Shown: piece after piece, positions 8,355 to 20,377 of the stretch | How positions within the stretch are numbered: the stretch's first letter is position 1 | Layout: every line of letters starts with the position of its first letter | NCBI GenBank assembly: GCA_947631015.1 | Contig: CANRJS010000021.1 | Coordinates: forward strand, 1 to 32,118 | Direction: 5' to 3' | Origin: an uncultured Clostridia bacterium | GTDB taxonomy: Bacteria > Bacillota > Clostridia > Oscillospirales > JAAYOS01 | DNA length: 32,118 bases | Translations under genes and position numbers: made by a program | Notes under the pieces: model-generated | Database searches by the model: none | What the model saw: only the letters and a program-made list of their open reading frames with translations | Told to the model about the DNA's origin: nothing

Positions 8355-10646
8355 ATGAAAAAGAGGTTGATTTCGCTCCTGCTCGCGGCGGCGCTCGTCG
8401 TGGGACTTGTGCCGGCGGCGGCCGCATTCGGAGACGTGCCGTCGGGCGAGCTCTCCGCAAAGCTGGAGCTCTTGCAGCAGCTCGACATAATAGACGGATA
8501 TACGGACGGCACCTTCCGCCCGAACAACACGCTCACCCGCGCGGAGTTCACGAAGCTCATCGTGACAATGCTCGGCGGCGGGGACGCGGCGGAGCTCTAC
8601 TCGGGCTACACCATCTTCACCGACGTTACGAGCGGTCACTGGGCGGCGGGCTGCATCAACTACGCCGCAAAGTCGACGGAGAGCGGCGGACTGAGCCTCA
8701 TCAAGGGCTACACCGACGGCAGCTTCCGCCCGAACGCGATCATTAAATTCGGCGAGGCTGTGACGATAGTCCTCCGCGCGCTCGGATGGAGTGACGCGAC
8801 GGTCGGCTACAACTGGCCCGCCGACTATATCACGAAAGCATCGCAGAGCGGTATCAGCGACGGGGTGACGCTCTCGGCCGAGCAGCCGGTGACGAGGGCA
8901 GACGGCGCGCGCATCTTCTACAACTCCCTCTTCGCCGCCAAGGCGGACGGAACGCACATTATCGACGGGCTCATCGGAGAGACGATTGCTTCCGCCGTCA
9001 TAGCCGATGTGAGCGCGGACGGCGTCTCGCTGTACGGCTATACGGGGACGTTTGCGAACGCCGCGGGTCTCGTGCGGGACGACGTCGGCAGGCGCTATAA
9101 GGTGACGCTCTCTAAGGACGGCGGCACGATACTCCGTGCCGAAGCTCTCGAGGAGAGCGGCAGTTCTGTGACGATAACCTTCGCCTACTACTCCGGCGAC
9201 GAGGTCACGGCGGTGGACGGGACGGTGTACAAGGTCACGGCGGACACCGCCGCCTACGCGAATAAGGACGGCGAGGACGCCGGGGCCACGACCTTCGGCG
9301 CCATACGCGACGATTTGAGCTACGGCGACACGCTGCGGCTCGAGATGGACAGCCGTGGCAGGGTGACGAGCGTCGTCGCCCTGTACGGTGAGGCCGCGGT
9401 CGCGGTATACGAGCCGGGGGACACGCAGAGCACGGTCCTCGCGGCGCTCGGAGCGCCGAGCGGGGTCAGGATATACAAGAACGGCGCGGAGACTGAGTTC
9501 TCCGCGCTTTCGGAATACGACGTGCTGAGCTACGTTCCGGGCGGAGCCGTTGTAGTGAGCGACTTCAAGCTGAACGCGGTCTACACCTACGCCGTCCCGA
9601 ACAGCGCCGCGCCGAACAGCATACGCGTTTACGGAGAGATGATTCCTCTCGCGCCCTGCGCGAAGGAGAGCGTCGCGGCGTTCAAGCCGAACGCCCGCCT
9701 CTGCCTGCTCTTTGCGGCGGACGGGCGCATCGCCGGAGCCAAGGATCCCGACGGGAGCCGCGCGGTCGGGATGTACACCGGCAGCTCGGTGCAGTTTGTC
9801 GGCGGGCCGGAGGTGTCGATGACGCTCGAAAAGACAGAGACGGGCGAACTCGTTGAGGTCTCGGTCGACGGAAAGGGCGCGCCGAAGGCGTCCGCCGTGA
9901 GGAACAGCGCGCCGGACAAGGATCTCGACCTTGAGAAGATGACCCTCGGCGGCGAAGCGCTCGCACCCGACTGCGCGCTGTACGAGCGCGCGGCAGCGGG
10001 CGTCCTGCCGGTGCGTATATCCCGCTCGGACATCACGGCGGACACCGTCGCGGCGAAGGATATAGTCCACGTCGGGCGCAACTCGGACGGCAGCGCGAAC
10101 CTCGTCATATTCGGAGACGTGACCGGCGACCGCTACGAGTACGGCAGGATGAGTTACAGGACGGAGTCCGTATCGGTAGGATTTGTCGGCAGCACCGAGG
10201 TCATGACTACCGAGCGGGAGATAACGCTTGACAACGCCAACGGCAGTACCGAGGCTCCGGCGCGTCCGTCGCTTCAAATGCCCGCCGGACTGCGCGAGAG
10301 CGTGGGTGAGCAGAATTACTATTACATCTGGGCGGGCGTTCTGAAAGGAAGCTACACGAGCGCCGCCGGCAGGACGGACGAGCGTATGCTGGAGGCGAAG
10401 CCTCTCGAGGAGAAGTACGAGGTCGGCCGCGCCGGCTTCGACGGTTCGTCGGCGGTGATGCTCGACGGAAAGCGCGTGCCGATAGCGCCTGGCGTGCAGG
10501 TGTTCATTGAGAGCGTAGGCAGCTTTATGTCGCCGAGTGACTTCGGCGGGAGCGTAGCTCAGATGGTGAGCGCCGCCCGCGCGCAGAGCGACAAGTTTGA
10601 CGTGTACACGGCAAACGGCAAGGTGCGGGTGATAGTAGTAAAGTAA
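8355..10646 (+). CDS. Secreted S-layer homology (SLH) domain protein, exporter-operon partner
   Basis: The ATG at 8355 is chosen because GGGAGG sits just upstream and it gives a clean signal peptide (MKKRLISLLLAAALVVGLVP, then AAAAF cleavage region); an ATG at 8331 overlaps the permease end. The mature protein, of 763 residues in total, begins with three SLH repeats. Two are canonical (LDIIDGYTDGTFRPNNTLTR and IKGYTDGSFRPNAIIKFGEA) and a third, weaker one ends in QPVTRADGARIFYN. SLH domains bind pyruvylated secondary cell-wall polymers. The remaining 560 or so residues are beta-rich with no catalytic motif I recognise. Only 16 bp separate it from the permease, so it is co-transcribed. I infer a wall-anchored component working with the exporter, or its cargo. 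Confidence 0.9.
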   Translation: MKKRLISLLLAAALVVGLVPAAAAFGDVPSGELSAKLELLQQLDIIDGYTDGTFRPNNTLTRAEFTKLIVTMLGGGDAAELYSGYTIFTDVTSGHWAAGCINYAAKSTESGGLSLIKGYTDGSFRPNAIIKFGEAVTIVLRALGWSDATVGYNWPADYITKASQSGISDGVTLSAEQPVTRADGARIFYNSLFAAKADGTHIIDGLIGETIASAVIADVSADGVSLYGYTGTFANAAGLVRDDVGRRYKVTLSKDGGTILRAEALEESGSSVTITFAYYSGDEVTAVDGTVYKVTADTAAYANKDGEDAGATTFGAIRDDLSYGDTLRLEMDSRGRVTSVVALYGEAAVAVYEPGDTQSTVLAALGAPSGVRIYKNGAETEFSALSEYDVLSYVPGGAVVVSDFKLNAVYTYAVPNSAAPNSIRVYGEMIPLAPCAKESVAAFKPNARLCLLFAADGRIAGAKDPDGSRAVGMYTGSSVQFVGGPEVSMTLEKTETGELVEVSVDGKGAPKASAVRNSAPDKDLDLEKMTLGGEALAPDCALYERAAAGVLPVRISRSDITADTVAAKDIVHVGRNSDGSANLVIFGDVTGDRYEYGRMSYRTESVSVGFVGSTEVMTTEREITLDNANGSTEAPARPSLQMPAGLRESVGEQNYYYIWAGVLKGSYTSAAGRTDERMLEAKPLEEKYEVGRAGFDGSSAVMLDGKRVPIAPGVQVFIESVGSFMSPSDFGGSVAQMVSAARAQSDKFDVYTANGKVRVIVVK

Positions 10647-10720
10647 TCTCGACGCGAAATGTGTTCGTGGCTAATTCGAGCGCATCGACATATTCCGCAT
10701 CTGACCACATTCGCCCCTCT

Positions 10721-11122
10721 TGGGCTTTGCCCGCTTCGCGGGCAAAGCCCACTCCCATCTAGCGGGGAAGTACCGCGAGCAAGCGGGCAGAGCCCACACC
10801 CATCTAGCGGGGAAGCCCCGCGTCCCTAAGTGAGGCAAAGCCTCACCGGCACTTTGCGGGGATTGCATCCCCACCCCTCTAGCGGGGAAGCCCCGCGAGC
10901 ATTCGAGGGGCGAGACTCCGCGTCCCGAGTGGGCAGAGCCCACACCCTTCCAGCGGGGAAGCCCCGCGAGCATACGCGGGGCGACCCCGCGTCCCTAAGT
11001 GAGGCTGAGCCTCACCACTACTTTGCGGGGGCTGCGCCCCCGCACCCTGCGTTACTTTTTGCTTGTGCAAAAAGTAACCAAAAAGCACACAAAGGGGAGA
11101 AAACTTTGTTTTCTCCCCTTTG
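10721..11122 (+). repeat. Left hairpin array: chain of perfect palindromes, copy 1
   Basis: About fifteen hairpins follow one another, mostly with 3-5 nt loops. The sharpest are 10721-10751 (14-bp stem, loop TTC), GCGGGGAAGCCCCGC at 10807, 10882 and 10953, GTGAGGCAAAGCCTCAC at 10830, GGGGATTGCATCCCC at 10858, GTGGGCAGAGCCCAC at 10929, CGCGGGGCGACCCCGCG at 10975 and GTGAGGCTGAGCCTCAC at 10999. The chain continues with a 21-nt G5/C5 palindrome at 11024-11044, a 12-bp stem at 11051-11078 (GTTACTTTTTGC arm), AACCAAAAAGC, and a final 15-bp stem at 11090-11122 (loop TTT). Linkers such as CGTCCCTAA and CTTTGCGGGG recur. The block reappears inverted at 11447-11893. There is no coding potential. I do not recognise a named family. 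Confidence 0.9.
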
Positions 11123-11446
11123 TACCCCTCTTTCCTTTGACCGGAAGGTCTCTGCCACGCGGGACGTCCGTCCGTAGCTTAGTACAAGCTTCCCCGCTCA
11201 TATTCTCGATTAGAACCGAAAGTTACGTTTTCTTGGGAAAGCATCTGCATTACGCTTATAGTTTAAGCGTAGGAGCGGACTTTTTGTATCTACTACGCAG
11301 GAACTGTTCGATGTCGTCGACGACAGTGGGAAAGTCGGATATTCTTCCCCCAGAAACTCACCCGGTCGGATGATAGATTTGTTGGATACAGAGTATCGTC
11401 ATACTCTGGGGGTAATGGTGTTGTGTCGTATTCAGGAGAGGGATTA
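11123..11446. other. Spacer between the inverted hairpin arrays, no gene recognised
   Basis: This 324-nt segment is less GC-rich than the arrays and has no convincing gene. It contains a small stem GAGTAT-CGTC-ATACTC (11391-11406) and an outer long-range pairing CCCCCAG (11348-11354) with CTGGGGG (11406-11412). A short minus-strand open stretch (about 11270-11370) reads protein-like but has no start or ribosome binding site. It could be a remnant. Confidence 0.4.
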
Positions 11447-11893
11447 TTAAGGGAGAGGGCGAAGCCCTCTCCCTTAAGCGCGCTTTTTGGCTACTTTTTG
11501 CGCGAGCAAAAATGTAACGCGTGCAGGCTTGAACCTTTTCCGCATAGATACATTCTACAGCCCGCACTAGCATTGTCCGCTTCGCGGACAATGCCCAACA
11601 CTTTCTTCACGAAACCGTGCAGGGCGGCACAGCCCCGCCGGGGGTGCGGGGGCAGAGCCCCCGCAAAGTGTCGGTAGAGCTCTGCTCTACCTAGGGACGC
11701 GGGGTCTCGCCCCGCGAATGCCCGCGGGGCTTCCCCGCTAGAGGAGTGGGGATGCAATCCCCGCAAAGTACCCGTGAGGCTCTGCCTCACTTCAGGTCGC
11801 GGGGTCTCGCCCCGCAGATTCCTGCGGGGCTTCCCCGCTGGAGGGTTGTGGGCTTCGCCCACGGATTGGGGAGGGGCGCACAGCCCCCGCAAA
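11447..11893 (-). repeat. Right hairpin array: inverted copy of the left array
   Basis: Read on the minus strand, this region repeats the left array in the same order. GTGGGC-GAA-GCCCAC (11848-11862), GCGGGGAAGCCCCGC (11824-11838, 11724-11738), the CGCGGGG-CCCCGCG stem (11799, 11698), GTGAGGCAGAGCCTCAC (11774-11790) and GGGGATTGCATCCCC (11748-11762) are followed by a GGTAGAG stem (11673-11691) and the 21-nt G5/C5 palindrome (11645-11665). Then come the TTAC...AAAAAGT stem (11491-11518), CCAAAAAGC, and a terminal 14-bp stem at 11447-11477. The terminal stem has a different sequence from its left counterpart yet pairs perfectly. An extra stretch of about 125 nt, with an 11-bp hairpin at 11570-11594, lies between the G5/C5 palindrome and the TTAC stem. 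Confidence 0.88.
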
Positions 11894-11929
11894 GTCTGTC
11901 AAAAAGTTCGTCAGAACTTTTTGGCAGAC
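11894..11929 (-). terminator. Terminator of the glgCDA operon
   Basis: On the minus strand, an AAAAAGTTC arm, loop TGAC and GAACTTTTT arm sit inside a longer stem (GTCTGTC...GGCAGAC on plus, with one G-U pair). The run of T in the 3' arm and its position 56 nt past the glgA stop support an intrinsic terminator. It also abuts the end of the hairpin array. Confidence 0.7.
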
Positions 11930-11933
11930 GTAA

Positions 11934-11958
11934 GCGGAGAGGGATATTCCCTCTCCGC
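11934..11958. other. 11-bp perfect hairpin after glgA
   Basis: GCGGAGAGGGA (11934-11944), loop TAT, TCCCTCTCCGC (11948-11958). On the plus strand it is followed by CTTCTCGTTTTT. It lies between glgA and its likely terminator, and may protect the mRNA 3' end or stop plus-strand transcription coming out of the array. Confidence 0.55.
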
Positions 11959-11984
11959 CTTCTCGTTTTTGAGTTTTGCCGCGC

Positions 11985-13424
11985 TCAGCGCTTGCCTGTG
12001 ATGTCGCGGTAGAGCTTGCGGTACTCGAGCGCGCTCTTCGTCCAGCTGAAGTCGCGGCCGAGGTCGCGCAGCATCATCTTCTCCCACTCGGGACGGTTGT
12101 CACGGTAGAGCTGAGTTGCGAGCCACAGGACGTGGACCATCTCGTCCGCGTTGTAGTTTGCGAACGTGAAGCCCGCGCCGGTGCCCTCGAACTCGTTGTA
12201 CGGCTCGACGGTGTCCTTGAGGCCGCCGGTCTCGCGGACGACCGGGATTGTGCCGTAGCGCATGGCTATCATCTGCGAGAGACCGCACGGCTCCTTCTGC
12301 GAGGGCATGAGGAAGATGTCCGCGCCGGAGTATATCCGCCGCGCGAGGCTCTCCGAGAAGGTGATGCAGCTCGCGATGCGGCCGGGATAGCGCTGCGCCG
12401 CGCTCGAGAAGAACTGCTCGTAGCCCTGCTCACCCGTTCCGAGTATGACGAACTGCACGCCGAGGCTCATGATGGCGTCCATCCGCGCGAGGACGAGATC
12501 CATGCCCTTGTGTGCGACGAGCCGTCCGACACATGCGACTATCGGCGTGTCCGGCTCGACCGCGAGGCCGAGCGACTGCTGAAGCTCCGCCTTGCAGACG
12601 GCCTTGCCCGAGATGTCCTTTGCGGTGTAGTTTTTCGCGATGGCGGCGTCGGTCTCGGGGTCGTAGGACTCCATGTCGATGCCGTTGAGGATGCCGGTGA
12701 AGCGGTCGCGTATGACGTTCACGACGCCGTCGAGACCGTATGCGTAGTAGGGATAGCGCAGCTCCTCGGCGTAGGTCGGCGAGACTGTGCTGACCGCGTC
12801 CGCGGTGAGCATGGCGCCCTTCATCAGAAGGATGTCGTGGTCATACTCAAGCCTGCCGGAGGTGTACCAGCCCTCGTTGAGACCGAAGAGGTCGGTGAGA
12901 AGCTCGCGTCCGTAGCGACCCTGATACTCGATGTTGTGGATGGTGAACAGCGTCTTGATATCGGCGAGCGAGCCGTCCATGCCCATCATGTCGTGGAGGT
13001 ATATCGGCACGAGCGCGGTCTGCCAGTCGTTGCAGTGGAGGATGTCCGGCCGCCAGTCTATCTGCCAGAGCAGCTCGGCGGCGGCGCGGCTGAAGAATGC
13101 GAAGCGCTCGCCGTCGTCAAAGTGGCCGTAGAGGCTCTCGCGCTTGAAGTAGTACTCGTTGTCGAGGAAATAGAAGACGGTGTTGCGGTACTTCAGCGTG
13201 AAGATGCCGCAGTAGACCTTGCGCCAGCCGAGGGTGACGTAGAAGTTCTTCTCGTAGGTCATCTGCTTGCGCCACTCCTCCTTTATCGAGCCGTAGAGGG
13301 GCATGACGACGCGGCAGGAGCAGCCGGGCATGTTCAGCGCTTCGGGAAGCGAACCAGCGACGTCTCCGAGTCCGCCGCTCTTTGCAAACGGAGCGGCTTC
13401 GGAGGTGATAAACAGAACTTTCAT
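11985..13424 (-). CDS. glgA: Glycogen synthase (ADP-glucose), GT5
   Basis: GlgA transfers glucose from ADP-glucose to the non-reducing end of alpha-1,4-glucan in the cytoplasm. At 479 residues it has the standard bacterial length. The N-terminal ADP-glucose-binding KSGGLGDVAGSLPEAL motif (15-30) is intact. The C-terminal Rossmann half shows the retaining GT-B donor site PSQKEPCGLSQMIAMRYGTI, then PVVRETGGLKDTV (about 376-410). The start at 13424 has GGAAAGGAGCA on the coding strand. It is the last gene of glgC-glgD-glgA, 80 bp after glgD, and is followed by a terminator. Confidence 0.97.
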   Translation of the reverse strand: MKVLFITSEAAPFAKSGGLGDVAGSLPEALNMPGCSCRVVMPLYGSIKEEWRKQMTYEKNFYVTLGWRKVYCGIFTLKYRNTVFYFLDNEYYFKRESLYGHFDDGERFAFFSRAAAELLWQIDWRPDILHCNDWQTALVPIYLHDMMGMDGSLADIKTLFTIHNIEYQGRYGRELLTDLFGLNEGWYTSGRLEYDHDILLMKGAMLTADAVSTVSPTYAEELRYPYYAYGLDGVVNVIRDRFTGILNGIDMESYDPETDAAIAKNYTAKDISGKAVCKAELQQSLGLAVEPDTPIVACVGRLVAHKGMDLVLARMDAIMSLGVQFVILGTGEQGYEQFFSSAAQRYPGRIASCITFSESLARRIYSGADIFLMPSQKEPCGLSQMIAMRYGTIPVVRETGGLKDTVEPYNEFEGTGAGFTFANYNADEMVHVLWLATQLYRDNRPEWEKMMLRDLGRDFSWTKSALEYRKLYRDITGKR

Positions 13425-15947: not shown

Positions 15948-16018
15948 TACTTTTCTGCAAATTCGACAAAAAGAATTTGCAAACGACGGCAGAGAAATGG
16001 CAAAACCTCACCTCGCTT

Positions 16019-16474
16019 TTAGTTTGCCAGATTGATGACTGGCTTTCCCAGCCTCCGCGCATAATTTACCGTATCCCACGCGCCGCCGAAGTTTCTGTAG
16101 ACGCAAGCGAGAACGATATCCGACTGATTGACCATCCACCGATTTCTCAATCCGATTGCCGCCTTGCGGTGAGCGGCGTCTGATGTCGACGGTATTATGA
16201 TCCCATCGAAAAGGGCTTCGTAGTATTCTCTGTCGGCGTTCAAGCGGTTTGAGGGGTATGGAAGAACCAGCGTCAGGGTGATGTCTATGTCCGGGTGGCG
16301 TCGTTTGGCCGCGCGCACGGCGGCACTTGCCATTTCATCGAACTGTCCCATACCGCCGCTCAGAAATAAAAACTTGTTGTCTGTTTGCAACAGCCGTTCA
16401 ATCTCGTCCGCCAATCTCATTTCTATGCCGGGAATGAGCACCTCCCGATGTCCCGAAAATACGCAGGTAATCAT
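16019..16474 (-). CDS. SLOG family protein (YpsA/DUF1273-like nucleotide-binding fold)
   Basis: The ATG at 16474 (MITCVFSGHREV) is preferred because CGGGAGG precedes it and the family begins with this strand. The frame is open upstream to 16588, but that part covers a promoter-like region and hairpin DNA. The product is 151 residues. SLOG features are the N-terminal FSGHR, FLSGGMGQFDEMAS (the glycine-rich nucleotide-ligand loop) and SDIVLACVYRNFGGAWDTVN with RLGKPVINL at the C-terminus. SLOG proteins are predicted to bind or cleave nucleotide derivatives; the cellular role is unknown. It is divergent from a mini HTH gene across a region containing the palindrome GCATAG-T-CTATGC (16506-16518). 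Confidence 0.88.
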   Translation of the reverse strand: MITCVFSGHREVLIPGIEMRLADEIERLLQTDNKFLFLSGGMGQFDEMASAAVRAAKRRHPDIDITLTLVLPYPSNRLNADREYYEALFDGIIIPSTSDAAHRKAAIGLRNRWMVNQSDIVLACVYRNFGGAWDTVNYARRLGKPVINLAN

Positions 16475-16561
16475 ATCAGCCTCCCGATATATGCCCAATA
16501 TTAGAGCATAGTCTATGCCTATTATATCGAGCATAATAAGAATATGTCCGCGCCCGTTCGC

Positions 16562-16671
16562 GCGGTTGAAGTTGCTTGCCGCAGGCAAGCAACTTCGCGC
16601 AGGCGGAATTCATTTCCGCCGAGCATTTCAACCGAAAGGGCTCCCAAACGACGCGACTGCGTCGTTTGGGA
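16562..16671 (+). repeat. Three-hairpin structured element, copy A
   Basis: Hairpin I: GAAGTTGCTTGCC (16568-16580), loop GCA, GGCAAGCAACTTC. Linker GCGCA. Hairpin II: GGCGGAA (16602-16608), loop TTCAT, TTCCGCC. Linker GAGCATTTCAACCGAAAGGGC. Hairpin III: TCCCAAACGACGC (16642-16654), loop GACT, GCGTCGTTTGGGA. All arms pair perfectly. Copy B at 18124-18228 has the same plan with compensating base changes. The 3' arm of hairpin III supplies the GGGAAGG used as ribosome binding site by the HTH gene at 16681. Confidence 0.88.
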
Positions 16672-16680
16672 AGGTGCGCT

Positions 16681-16911
16681 ATGATTGTTTACGACCCGCT
16701 TTGGGACACGATGACAAAGAAGGGCTTCTCAACCTATACGCTCAGGTTCAAGCTTGGGATGAGCGGCAGCACGGTGCAGCGTCTGCGGAAGAACATGTCG
16801 GTTTCGACGAACACGCTTGACGACCTGTGCCGGATGCTCGACTGTTCCGTTGAGGAGATAGTGAGGTACGTCCCGGATGCGTCGCCCGCCGCCGGGCGCG
16901 GGGTCGAGTAG
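16681..16911 (+). CDS. Mini XRE-family (YozG-like) transcriptional regulator
   Basis: The ATG at 16681 gives 76 residues, almost entirely one Cro/C1-type helix-turn-helix domain. KGFSTYTLRFKLGMSGSTVQ is the helix 1-3 region, then NTLDDLCRMLDCSVEEIVRYV as helices 4-5. Such single-domain regulators are common in Clostridia; targets are unknown. The ribosome binding site GGGAAGG overlaps the 3' arm of the last hairpin of structured element A, so folding of that RNA should occlude it if the element is transcribed with the gene. No dedicated promoter is obvious between the element and the start. A long hairpin (16925-16976) follows the stop by 14 nt. Confidence 0.82.
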   Translation: MIVYDPLWDTMTKKGFSTYTLRFKLGMSGSTVQRLRKNMSVSTNTLDDLCRMLDCSVEEIVRYVPDASPAAGRGVE

Positions 16912-16924
16912 GGAAGAACGCCAA

Positions 16925-16976
16925 AGCGCAAGGCTGTCCAAGCGGCGCGCCACGCCGTTTGAGACAGTCTTGCGCT
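16925..16976 (+). other. Long interrupted hairpin after the HTH gene
   Basis: AGCGCAAGGCTGTC (16925-16938) pairs with GACAGTCTTGCGCT (16963-16976), and an inner GCGGCG pairs with CGCCGT. No T-run follows; instead the 3' arm carries the -35 of the next promoter. It may act as a rho-independent-like pause, an mRNA 3' protector, or an operator-like structure. Confidence 0.6.
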
Positions 16977-16998
16977 TATCCATCGAATATGATACAAT
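16970..16998 (+). promoter_or_regulatory. Promoter of the M28 peptidase gene
   Basis: TTGCGC (16970-16975), 17-bp spacer, TACAAT (16993-16998) with extended TGA before it. It lies 43 bp upstream of the ATG at 17041. Confidence 0.65.
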
Positions 16999-17040
16999 TC
17001 CAACATGGCCACAACTATTGCAAACCGGAGGAAAGGAAAC

Positions 17041-17817
17041 ATGAAGTACATAGAACGAATAGCGAGCGCGGATCAGTCGAAGCGGAAGCAGGCTATCAAG
17101 GATATACTGGGAGAAATCGGCGTGAAATACACCATGCAAGACGTCCATATCGGGGAACACGACGTGACAAACATCGTCGTTTCCTTCAACCCGTCCCCGG
17201 CGAGGCTCGTCATAGGTGCGCACCACGACAGCGTCGAGAACAGCACCGGCTCCAATGACGATGCGAGCGGGTGCAGTGTCCTCCTTCACCTGATAGAGCG
17301 GCTGAAGGGCACGAAGCGCAGCATAGACTTCGTATTCTTTGACCGCGAGGAAGTGATGGATCACGGCAGCGACGCCTATATGGACACCGTCGGGCAGGAG
17401 AACATAGCGGCGATGATAAACCTCGACATGTGCGGCTGGGGAGACATCGTGACGGTTTCGGACAAGGGCAACCTTGGTAATCCTGCGTTCGGCGGCGTCC
17501 TTGACGAAAAAGTGATAGAGAAGCATGGCGTGAACGTCGTGGGCTTCCTGCCGAACGGGGACGACAACAGATTTGCTGCGAGAAACATCCCGAACATCTC
17601 GGTCTGCACGCTCTACGGGAAGGACGCCGCGTTCTTCCGTCACCTCGGCGAGAAGATAAAGAGCGGTGAACCGCTCACCGACGAGGACAACAAGGGCTTC
17701 CGCAACCTCGAAGTCGTGACAACGATGCACCTCGGCCCGAACGACAACATCGGCTCCTGCCATCAGCTCGCGGTGGACAAGGTGACCGAGTGGATAGCGG
17801 ACGGCCTCGCGGAATAA
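17041..17817 (+). CDS. M28-family metallopeptidase (aminopeptidase-like)
   Basis: The ATG at 17041 has CGGAGGAAAGGAAAC directly upstream; an in-frame ATG at 17005 lies before this Shine-Dalgarno sequence and is rejected. The product is 258 residues. Zinc-site motifs of clan MH are visible: IGAHHDSVE (first His and catalytic Asp), GSNDDASGC (bridging Asp), FFDREEVMDHGS (general-base Glu plus ligand Glu), NLDMCGWGD (Asp ligand) and TTMHLGPNDN (last His). It has no signal peptide or accessory domain, so it is probably cytoplasmic, hydrolysing N-terminal residues of peptides. It is a single-gene unit with its own promoter and a strong terminator. Confidence 0.92.
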   Translation: MKYIERIASADQSKRKQAIKDILGEIGVKYTMQDVHIGEHDVTNIVVSFNPSPARLVIGAHHDSVENSTGSNDDASGCSVLLHLIERLKGTKRSIDFVFFDREEVMDHGSDAYMDTVGQENIAAMINLDMCGWGDIVTVSDKGNLGNPAFGGVLDEKVIEKHGVNVVGFLPNGDDNRFAARNIPNISVCTLYGKDAAFFRHLGEKIKSGEPLTDEDNKGFRNLEVVTTMHLGPNDNIGSCHQLAVDKVTEWIADGLAE

Positions 17818-17837
17818 ACCTTCCACACAAACACAAA

Positions 17838-17877
17838 ACAGGCGTCCCTGCCGACGGCAGGGACGCCTGTTTGTCTT
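17838..17877 (+). terminator. Terminator of the M28 peptidase gene
   Basis: ACAGGCGTCCCTGCC (17838-17852), loop GAC, GGCAGGGACGCCTGT (17856-17870), then TTGTCTT. The stem is a perfect 15 bp. Confidence 0.9.
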
Positions 17878-17953
17878 ATAGTCTTATGGCAAAAGCCTCG
17901 CAGAGAATGCGCCCCTCGGGATATACTGCAATCAACCCTCTACCGGACGTATC

Positions 17954-18115
17954 GGCATTCGGCGCAAAGCGCCGAATGCCCTACATTGCACGAGCCGGAG
18001 GGTGCCGAAGGCGGTTCCGCCTTTTCATTAGCCCAATGTCGGTCAATATTCGCAAAGCGAATATTGCGAGCGAGGGCTGTAAAATGTTGGATAGGGAATT
18101 GATTCGCGCCCTCGC
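17954..18115 (+). repeat. Hairpin-rich non-coding segment upstream of element B
   Basis: Four hairpins lie in a row: GGCATTCGGCGC-AAA-GCGCCGAATGCC (17954-17980), AAGGCGG-TT-CCGCCTT (18008-18023), CAATATTCGC-AAA-GCGAATATTG (18044-18066), and GCGAGGGC (18070-18077) with GCCCTCGC (18108-18115). An outer pairing CATTG/CAATG encloses the second. No gene is recognised in 17878-18328. Confidence 0.75.
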
Positions 18116-18123
18116 GGTTCGCA

Positions 18124-18228
18124 GCGGTTGAAGTTGGCGGCTTTGCCGCCAACTTCGCGCAGCCGGAATTCATTTCCGGCGAGCATTTCAATAGAAAGGT
18201 TCCCACGCGGTCGACGACCGCGTGGGAA
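18124..18228 (+). repeat. Three-hairpin structured element, copy B
   Basis: Hairpin I: GAAGTTGGCGGC (18130-18141), loop TTT, GCCGCCAACTTC. Linker GCGCA. Hairpin II: GCCGGAA (18162-18168), loop TTCAT, TTCCGGC. Linker GAGCATTTCAATAGAAAGG. Hairpin III: TTCCCACGCGGTC (18200-18212), loop GAC, GACCGCGTGGGAA. Compared with copy A the linkers and loop II are conserved, while the distal part of stem I, the base of stem II and all of stem III differ in both arms so that pairing is kept. Confidence 0.88.
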
Positions 18229-18328: not shown

Positions 18329-20377
18329 TTACTTTTTGTCCTTCTTTAGCTTCCGGTCGAGCTTCAGCACGACGCCGCCGAGCGGCGGGAGCTTTATCTC
18401 GAGCGAATGCTCGCGCTCGTGGCAGGGCGCGGAGGAGGAGTATATCGGCTCGGAGTTGATGTGCGCCCCGTCGCCGCCGAACTCCTCGCGGTCGGTGTTG
18501 AAGACCTCGGTGTAGACGCCGCTGTCCTGAACGCCGACGCGGTAGCCGTCCCGCTCCATCGGTGAGAAGTTTATCACGAAGATGAGCTCGCGGCCGTCCC
18601 TGTCGCGGCGGATGAAGGAGACGGTGTTCGCCTGGAAGTCGTCGTGGCAGATCCACTCGAAGCCGTCCCACGAGAAGTCGATCTCCCACATCGCGGGGTG
18701 CGCCTTGTAGAAGGCGTTCAGCGCCGAGACGAAGTTCTTCAGCTTCGCGTGGCGGTCAAAGTCGAGCAGCAGCCAGTCGAGCCCGTTCTCGAAGTTCCAC
18801 TCGATGAACTGTCCGAACTCCTGACCCATGAAGAGCAGCTTCTTGCCGGGGTGCGCGAACATGTAGAGCAGGAACGCGCGGACGCCCGCGAACTTCTGCT
18901 CGTACTCTCCGGGCATCTTGTCAAGCAGGGAGCGCTTTCCGTGGACGACCTCGTCGTGCGACACCGGCAGCAGGAAATTCTCGCTGAAGGCGTACATGAA
19001 CGAGAATGTGATGTCCTTGTGGTTGAACTGGCGGAAGTACGGGTCGAGAGCGGCGTAATGCATCATGTCGTTCATCCAGCCCATGTTCCACTTGAGGTTG
19101 AAGCCGAGACCGCCGTCGTGCGGGGGCTTGGTGACCATCGGCCACGCGGTCGACTCCTCGGCTATCAGCGCCACGTCGGGGTGGCGCGCGAACATGACCT
19201 CCGAGAGCTTGCGGAGCATCGAGACCGCCTCGAGGTTCTCGTTGCCGCCGTACTTGTTGGCCTTCCACTGACCGTCCCGGCGGCCGTAGTCGAGGTAGAG
19301 CATACTCGCCACCGCGTCAAGACGGAGCCCGTCGGCGTGGAAGCAATTAAGCCAGAAGTCGGCGCTCGAGAGCAGGAAGGAGCGGACCTCGCTGCGCCCG
19401 TAGTCGAAGATGCGGGTGCCCCAGTCGGGGTGCTCGCGCATTTGAACGTCCTCGCCCTCGTACAGTCCGGTGCCGTCGAAGTCGACAAGGCCGTGGCCGT
19501 CGCGCGGGAAATGCGCCGGCACCCAGTCGAGGATGACGCCGATGCCCGCCCGGTGGAGCCTGTCGATGAGGTCCATGAGGTCGGCGGGGGTGCCGAAGCG
19601 GCTCGTCGCGGCGAAGTAGCCGGTGACCTGATAGCCCCAGCTCGCGTCAAGCGGGTGCTCCATGACGGGCATGAACTCGACGTGCGTGAAGCCGGTCTCC
19701 TTGAGGTAGGGGATGAGGTCGTCCGCGATCATGCCGTAGCTGTAGAACTGTCCGTCCGCGCCGGGGGAGACCTTCTTCCAGGAGCCGAGGTGCATCTCGT
19801 AGATGCTCATCGGCCGGTCAAGGAGGTTGGAGGAGGCGCGCTTCTTCATCCACGCGCCGTCGCCCCACTTGTGGCAGCCGTCTATCGGATAGAGCTTGGA
19901 AGCGTTCGCGGGGCGGGTCTCGGCGTGGAAGGCGTAGGGGTCGCACTTGTCTATCACGTCCCCGCGCTTTGTCTCTATCGAGAACTTATATGCGTCGTAG
20001 GTCTGCGCGCCGGGCACAAAGGTCTCCCAGACCTCGGGATCCTCCTTCGTGCGCTTCATGGGATGCGCCGTGCGGTCCCACTCGTTGAAGCTGCCTATCA
20101 CAGAGACGCTCACGGCGTTCGGCGCCCAGACGCGGAATATGTACCCCTCCGCGCCGCGCTCGGTGTGCGGATGCGCGCCGAGCCACTCGTAGGCGGCGCA
20201 CTCGCTCCCCTCGTGGAAGAGGTAGATGTGGTCGCCGAGCTCGCGGCGAAGCGCCGCGCGGCTCTTATCCGCAGGCTTCTTTGCCGGCTTTTCGGCAGGC
20301 TTTTTTGCTGTTTGCTTTGCGGCCGCCTTTTCGGGCGCGGCCGAATCCTTCTTACGTCGGGATGTGTTTTCCGCCAT
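18329..20377 (-). CDS. glgB: 1,4-alpha-glucan branching enzyme (GH13)
   Basis: GlgB makes alpha-1,6 branches in glycogen. The product is 682 residues. It begins with a Lys/Ala/Pro-rich, probably disordered tail of about 40 residues, then a CBM48 domain (GYIFRVWAPNAVSVSVIGSF, about 79-98) and the GH13 barrel. Catalytic regions are DWVPAHFP (I), GLRLDAVASMLY (II, nucleophile Asp, near 355), LIAEESTAW (III, acid/base Glu, near 404) and VSHDEVVHGK (IV, near 473). The ATG at 20377 has GGAGG 7 nt upstream. It is 52 bp downstream of pduL on the same strand, so the two are probably one operon, separate from glgCDA. Confidence 0.97.
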   Translation of the reverse strand: MAENTSRRKKDSAAPEKAAAKQTAKKPAEKPAKKPADKSRAALRRELGDHIYLFHEGSECAAYEWLGAHPHTERGAEGYIFRVWAPNAVSVSVIGSFNEWDRTAHPMKRTKEDPEVWETFVPGAQTYDAYKFSIETKRGDVIDKCDPYAFHAETRPANASKLYPIDGCHKWGDGAWMKKRASSNLLDRPMSIYEMHLGSWKKVSPGADGQFYSYGMIADDLIPYLKETGFTHVEFMPVMEHPLDASWGYQVTGYFAATSRFGTPADLMDLIDRLHRAGIGVILDWVPAHFPRDGHGLVDFDGTGLYEGEDVQMREHPDWGTRIFDYGRSEVRSFLLSSADFWLNCFHADGLRLDAVASMLYLDYGRRDGQWKANKYGGNENLEAVSMLRKLSEVMFARHPDVALIAEESTAWPMVTKPPHDGGLGFNLKWNMGWMNDMMHYAALDPYFRQFNHKDITFSFMYAFSENFLLPVSHDEVVHGKRSLLDKMPGEYEQKFAGVRAFLLYMFAHPGKKLLFMGQEFGQFIEWNFENGLDWLLLDFDRHAKLKNFVSALNAFYKAHPAMWEIDFSWDGFEWICHDDFQANTVSFIRRDRDGRELIFVINFSPMERDGYRVGVQDSGVYTEVFNTDREEFGGDGAHINSEPIYSSSAPCHEREHSLEIKLPPLGGVVLKLDRKLKKDKK

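Follow-up and report, generated by a model that had tools for sequence, protein, structure and literature searches.

The window analysed here, a stretch of 32,118 nucleotides from an uncultured Clostridia bacterium (contig CANRJS010000021.1), carries two copies (A and B) of a multi-hairpin unit which we interpret, at a probability of about 0.8, as a mobile palindromic element about 120 bp long, without genes and non-autonomous, that has been amplified in four species and for which an insertion route is proposed below. Taken by itself, the conclusion that the repeat of the host genus is a dispersed mobile palindromic DNA element is very probable, as copy number is high, units are present or absent at corresponding sites in sister species, they are intergenic and randomly oriented, and direct duplications lie beside some of them. 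A preliminary description of the window, made from the sequence alone, had offered a choice between a structured RNA and a mobile palindromic element; the second half of that proposal was supported but the first was not in the host genus, where stem mismatches are strand-symmetric and orientation relative to transcription is near random. Genomes were examined as sequence stretches and through pattern and model searches.

The hairpin unit in the window and its distribution

Both copies lie where the preliminary description had placed them, with the linkers and the loop (TTCAT) that it named and with paired stems, but its account of the extent of the unit required correction: the left edge of copy A lies earlier, at 16548 and not 16562, and the hairpin at this side (hairpin 0, Table 1) had been overlooked. 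The unit is about 120 nt long and consists of hairpin 0 and stems I, II and III; tandem units elsewhere repeat with a period of 118. Copy A does adjoin the start of a regulator gene as had been claimed, with 9 bases between its end (16671) and the ATG (16681) of the HTH_26 gene, and sits between this gene and a minus-strand ORF with no Pfam match. Copy B sits between the convergent Peptidase_M28 and GlgB-like genes, and its long-hairpin module is also present at other copies (e.g. L002, L007 and L015). A 35-base core shared by A and B gave two matches in the window and none in 100 shuffles, and both copies folded much better than their shuffles on either strand, with z-scores of −7.0 to −8.2. 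No long flanking duplication is kept at copies A and B, and no intrinsic terminator (GC hairpin plus T run) was found at stem III on the plus strand of either, one weak terminator-like match being located on the minus strand (18228–18200). When the window was compared with Rfam only 5S rRNA was matched and the hairpin units were without a match, as were 20 unit-bearing loci; the check for an existing family that the preliminary description had proposed was thus negative.

Table 1. Coordinates in the window of the two copies, their component hairpins and the neighbouring genes
Feature	Position	Strand	Basis or remark
Copy A, full unit (hairpin 0, stems I–III)	16548–16671	+	Sequence; 62-copy genome alignment
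Copy A, hairpin 0, CCGCGCCCGTTCGCGCGG (CCGCGC-CCGTTC-GCGCGG)	16548–16565	+	Kept in nearly all copies
Copy A, stem I, type GAAGTTGCTTGCC	16568–16596	+	Sequence
Copy A, stem II, GGCGGAA-TTCAT-TTCCGCC	16602–16620	+	One of five common stem II types
Copy A, stem III	16642–16671	+	Right boundary of the unit
HTH_26 (Cro/C1-type) regulator gene, neighbour of copy A	16681–16911	+	Pfam HTH_26, E 2.5e-14
Peptidase_M28 gene, between copies A and B	17041–17817	+	Pfam, E 5.4e-23
Copy B, left long-hairpin module (GCGAGGGC ... GCCCTCGC)	18070–18115	+	Alternative to hairpin 0
Copy B, core	18130–18228	+	Sequence; 62-copy alignment; orthologous G002 unit with different stems
Copy B, stem I	18130–18156		
Copy B, stem II	18162–18180		
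Copy B, stem III	18200–18228		
GlgB-like alpha-amylase gene	18329–20377	−	Pfam CBM_48, Alpha-amylase, GlgB_N

At the site orthologous to copy B, the sister genome G002 carries a unit that differs simultaneously in both arms of all three stems (I, II and III). The HTH_26 gene is missing at the corresponding place in the same genome; a block of about 980 bp that holds both copy A and this gene (15988–16968 in the window) is absent there, with a stem II remnant left. Elsewhere in the window, a 1.3-kb intergenic tract (10640–11985) is made up of other nested palindromes, TCTAGCGGGGAAGCCCCGCGAGCAT and variants, and has long inverted arms (10809–10929 and 11691–11811) that are 88% complementary.

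What had been described from two copies recurs throughout the host genome (G000, 1.89 Mb), where pattern searching yields 70–86 copies depending on the pattern used (70 matches to a core pattern with three or fewer mismatches and 86 to a second core pattern with two or fewer), and pairing is kept among them. Sister genomes G001, G002 and G004 hold 65–78 copies each and G003, of the same genus, holds none. Only 6 of 156 units overlap a gene called with a simple codon-based gene caller. Units are concentrated in convergent gaps: the gaps that bear a unit are convergent in 25 cases, codirectional in 24 and divergent in 4, compared with 19, 66 and 36 respectively for gaps without one, and in codirectional gaps the orientation of units is near random (37 versus 29). 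Units have been gained, lost and rearranged at orthologous sites in the sister genomes, and they form mosaics and tandem arrays. When 84,980 species genomes were scanned with an exact pattern, matches were obtained only in three rabbit-gut Clostridia MAGs (Lapin-003-2 bin20, Lapin-004 bin9 and Lapin-008 bin30). A covariance model, the approach recommended in the preliminary description, was built from 46 copies and did find diverged relatives elsewhere in the order, in families other than that of the host and mainly in f13 (best E 5e-14); outside the order a second model found little, a class-wide survey (R2) giving weak partial matches only. Three sequences labelled ‘Bacteriophage sp.’ (L231–L233; MT839134, MT838853 and MT838705) carry relatives of the unit. 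A phage origin was rejected for L231, whose ORFs include SpoIIE- and RibF-like ones and which looks like a bacterial contig.

Compensatory stem changes and strand symmetry

The compensatory changes noted between A and B recur genome-wide, being two-sided in 22 of the 27 predicted pairs among 62 aligned copies. Stem I exists in 87 variants among 156 copies, and stem II in five common types with few single-arm intermediates. These changes speak for a structured RNA, either cis-regulatory or an sRNA, in which the hairpins would be selected as RNA and the copies would be paralogous regulatory elements. However, palindromic repeats can covary through a process acting on DNA, so that covariation is not in itself a sign of RNA, and a count of G.T against A.C pairs, which tests strand symmetry, is a simple way to tell the two apart, as a G-U-tolerant RNA is expected to show G.T pairs and few A.C pairs. 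Summed over stems I–III of the 156 host-genus copies, which are not independent and whose stems were delimited with our own parser, there are 4358 Watson–Crick, 28 G.T and 26 A.C pairs. Pairing is therefore strand-symmetric, as expected if the arms are corrected mutually in DNA or whole stems are swapped between units; stem tips are found in both orientations (GGCAAAGCC and GGCTTTGCC). Together with the near-random orientation to codirectional genes this symmetry argues against a structured RNA in the host genus, and the presence or absence of units at orthologous sites and the Rfam result also count against one. Stem III of the diverged relatives has 15 G.T and 3 A.C pairs, which favours a functional single strand there, so that the top strand of the element may matter in that family; this bias and the sense orientation of most relatives to the duplicated gene (see below) are the further points on the side of RNA, which we nevertheless consider an improbable explanation of the element.

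RNAalifold performed weakly on the relatives (alignment A3) as stem lengths vary, and their stems were accordingly parsed copy by copy. An outer closing stem, GGTTGAA/TTCAATC, was rejected since it shows no covariation (GGTTAAA occurs with TTCAAT). In columns 58–59 and 85–86 of A3 the linkers around stem II (GCGCA and GAGC) show paired G-C to C-G changes, and in the relatives these linkers may pair across an internal loop.

Gene-end duplications and junction complements

A direct repeat at the same site (score at least 20) was found at 40 of 59 loci with diverged relatives, compared with 0.85% of swapped controls. The repeat is usually the end of the adjacent gene (26–114 bp), its right copy mostly starts 3–7 nt past the model match, and the right boundary of the relatives is precise whereas the left is variable. 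Most relatives are at gene 3′ ends in the sense orientation, and LepA-, EF-P- and WhiA-like ends are among those duplicated (judged from translated tails); L131, L174 and L183 adjoin the 5′ ends of genes that are antisense to the element, and L195 is at a sense 5′ end. In genus g46 the lepA site is filled in four genomes, empty in five and occupied in two by a different palindromic insert (described below). In a cultured isolate, Vescimonas fastidiosa MM35, the 5′ end of truB is duplicated (61/63 bases).

At its left end the element carries a reverse complement of the target (A′), 10–17 nt long, drawn from around the junction (P1). With a score of at least 10, A′ is present at 26 of 37 duplicated loci but in only 1.3% of swapped controls; it typically spans 5 nt before to 8 nt after P1 (as an example, at L180, GGTCTACGGCGGC with gccgccgtagacc), and at lepA an A′ match of about 18 nt occurs in four species. 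A segment, x, of 0–70 nt lies between the first gene end and A′, and at V. fastidiosa truB it provides a new ribosome-binding site. No core sequence common to the loci of the relatives was found. Supported by the swapped controls, these arrangements indicate that the relatives probably insert with duplication of the gene end and a junction-complementary segment.

Between the left and the right copy of the gene end, 67 codons show synonymous and 7 non-synonymous differences, where the neutral expectation is 26% synonymous (p = 2.6e-31, which overstates independence as the loci are partly related). The end duplications at L189, L203 and L180 are 100% identical over 42, 64 and 77 bp respectively, in inserts that look recent, and the right copy of the lepA end in G202 has an in-frame stop. 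From these three observations taken together it would follow that the left copy serves as the functional gene end and that the right copy was working until recently or has been exchanged with a working one. Divergence that is almost only synonymous is not accounted for by a simple, dead duplication of the target alone; it fits either the spread of filled alleles by homologous recombination or an element bringing a gene end of its own.

Direct repeats beside the units of the host genus are in excess over controls with a few long cases, a clear long flanking duplication being kept by about half a dozen of 148 copies. At the 3′ end of a gene that we take to be yicC, from its yicC–remA neighbourhood, G000, G002 and G004 have a gene end, a unit and a second gene end, whereas in G001 and G003 the gene end is single and a unit is missing; the two yicC end copies have species-specific bases in common. 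An aspartokinase-like gene (L075) has an end duplication of about 67 bp, and the locus in G000 looks like a unit–unit recombinant that has lost it. On inspection by eye no A′ complement was evident at the duplications of the host genus (yicC, L075 and L035). Among the relatives, those at L134, L137, L139, L140, L177, L179, L184 and L194 are fused to terminator-like hairpins; several of these are beside tRNA 3′ ends, and they are without gene-end duplication.

A proposed insertion route, rival explanations and comparison with known elements

The machinery families searched were Y1, DDE_Tnp_1 and RVT_1. In the five genomes of the host genus no Y1 transposase (Y1_Tnp, PF01797; controls positive), no DDE_Tnp_1 protein and no RVT_1 reverse transcriptase was found, so the last two were rejected as resident mobilisers in the genus and nothing visible from these families could move the element today. 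RVT_1 proteins are held by genomes of the relatives and also by G010, where no copy of the element was found.

The insertion route that we prefer, tentatively and at less than even odds, starts from a staggered cut. The element would enter the end of a conserved gene, which would stay intact, and the product would read, in order, gene body, P1, gene end, x, A′ and hairpins, followed by P1 and the gene end again, A′ representing, in reverse complement, the roughly 5 nt preceding and 8 nt following P1. The two target strands would be cut 26–114 nt apart and one end would be joined precisely after stem III, while the other, single-stranded 3′ end would fold back at P1, copy a few bases (the future A′) and join the hairpin side. 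Filled alleles would later spread between species by homologous recombination, and this would explain why nearly all differences between the gene-end copies are synonymous. In the host genus most copies would be old and shuffled by unit–unit recombination, their stems being perfected or exchanged through a strand-symmetric DNA process, and a trans-acting enzyme would mobilize the element. It should be noted that the x segment is left without explanation by fold-back copying and that synonymous-only divergence also fits a right copy that is still coding or a gene end borne by the element. Further points against this reading are the negative machinery searches in the host genus, the scarcity of long flanking duplications there and the lack of A′ at those that were inspected, as well as the G.T excess in stem III of the relatives.

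We rank this route above, in descending order, an element-borne gene end, retroposition, the structured RNA discussed above and an intron-like element. In the element-borne model, which is possible although doubtful, the mobile block would comprise gene end, x, A′ and hairpins and would recombine at P1 in the manner of a miniature integrative element or a folded single-strand site (cf. integron attC and CTX-phage attP), the left copy being derived from the donor and the right being the displaced native end. The 67:7 ratio, the decay of the right copy in some cases (the G202 stop) and the ribosome-binding site given to V. fastidiosa truB by x are all in keeping with this, and pairing of A′ with its complement A would restore, across P1, a duplex with the sequence of the target; on the other hand left and right copies are identical at L180, L203 and L189, the yicC copies share their species-specific bases, and the junction sequence differs from locus to locus so that no common recombination site is visible. 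Target-primed retroposition of a bacterial SINE-like element, with RNA copied into a nicked target, would give inserts that are precise at the 3′ end and variable at the 5′ end, with target duplications of variable length. The boundaries of the relatives, the 26–114 bp range and the top-strand wobble bias all agree, but the absence of RVT_1 from all five host-genus genomes and its occurrence in G010 as well as in genomes of the relatives make this route unlikely. Removal of the sequence from P1 to P1 from the mRNA, as by an intron, with both gene-end copies translated, would account for their protein-constrained appearance and for the complementarity of A′ to both sides of the junction, which resembles an internal guide sequence. 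It is very improbable, since several elements adjoin the 5′ end of an antisense gene (L131, L174, L183 and V. fastidiosa truB), a right copy with a stop exists, and the unit is too short to accommodate a group I or II core and has no Rfam match. Least credible is an ordinary REP/BIME family moved by TnpA-REP (RAYT): the intergenic palindromes, mosaics and tandem arrays and the tens of copies per genome are as in such families, yet a RAYT-mobilized REP was rejected, no Y1 protein having been found in the five genomes, the unit is much longer than REPs and the relatives carry long gene-end duplications.

Literature searches of open-licence papers found no description of such an element. Integrative elements at gene 3′ ends restore the gene end, and attC and CTX-phage attP are folded single-strand sites; these systems carry or use integrases that act on one core site. 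They resemble the present elements in gene-end insertion with the end restored and in folded sites, but here the insert is about 200 bp without genes and the target sequence is different at each locus. Diversity-generating retroelements have two near-identical repeats at a gene 3′ end, and hairpins lie either between these repeats or beyond the second; here, by contrast, the differences are synonymous (67 to 7) and not adenine-directed, and RVT_1 is lacking in the host genus. REP/BIME sequences with their TnpA-REP (RAYT) are similar as intergenic palindromes in many copies, mosaics and tandem arrays, but REPs are 20–50 nt long with a GTAG-type tag and a Y1 transposase (PMC8266576), whereas the unit here is about 120 nt with four hairpins, no GTAG-type tag in the alignment and no Y1_Tnp. 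MITEs and the small enterobacterial repeat units RU-1, RU-2 and RU-3 (100–170 bp) are, like the present units, non-coding, intergenic and presumed to be mobilized in trans (PMC2759123). No common or IS-type terminal inverted repeats were seen here, and in place of the constant short target duplication of MITEs the relatives have variable duplications of 26–114 bp, far longer than usual. Direct repeats of variable length are shared with IS1549 and IS1634, for which 8–514 bp have been reported on insertion with no mechanism proposed (PMC2266710), but those are full insertion sequences with transposases, and the elements here have no genes, a bias to gene ends and a target-complementary segment. 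Mitochondrial double-hairpin elements are also dispersed mobile hairpins but are organellar (PMC5910586).

None of the element classes compared here has the insertion anatomy of the relatives, in which the element is flanked on either side by a gene end, the two ends diverge synonymously and a segment complementary to the junction is present. Whether this amounts to a new mobile class (gene-free, multi-hairpin and about 120–200 bp, found order-wide at conserved gene ends, duplicating or re-supplying the end, target-complementary and with no recognized enzyme of the transposase and reverse transcriptase families searched in the host genus) we judge to be evenly balanced; a mechanism, if found, would represent a new way for DNA to enter conserved genes without breaking them. 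At the lepA 3′ end G201 and G203 (L208 and L215) carry an unrelated palindromic insert between duplicated gene ends of 33 bp, the two copies of which show synonymous differences; the style of insertion is alike and the element different.
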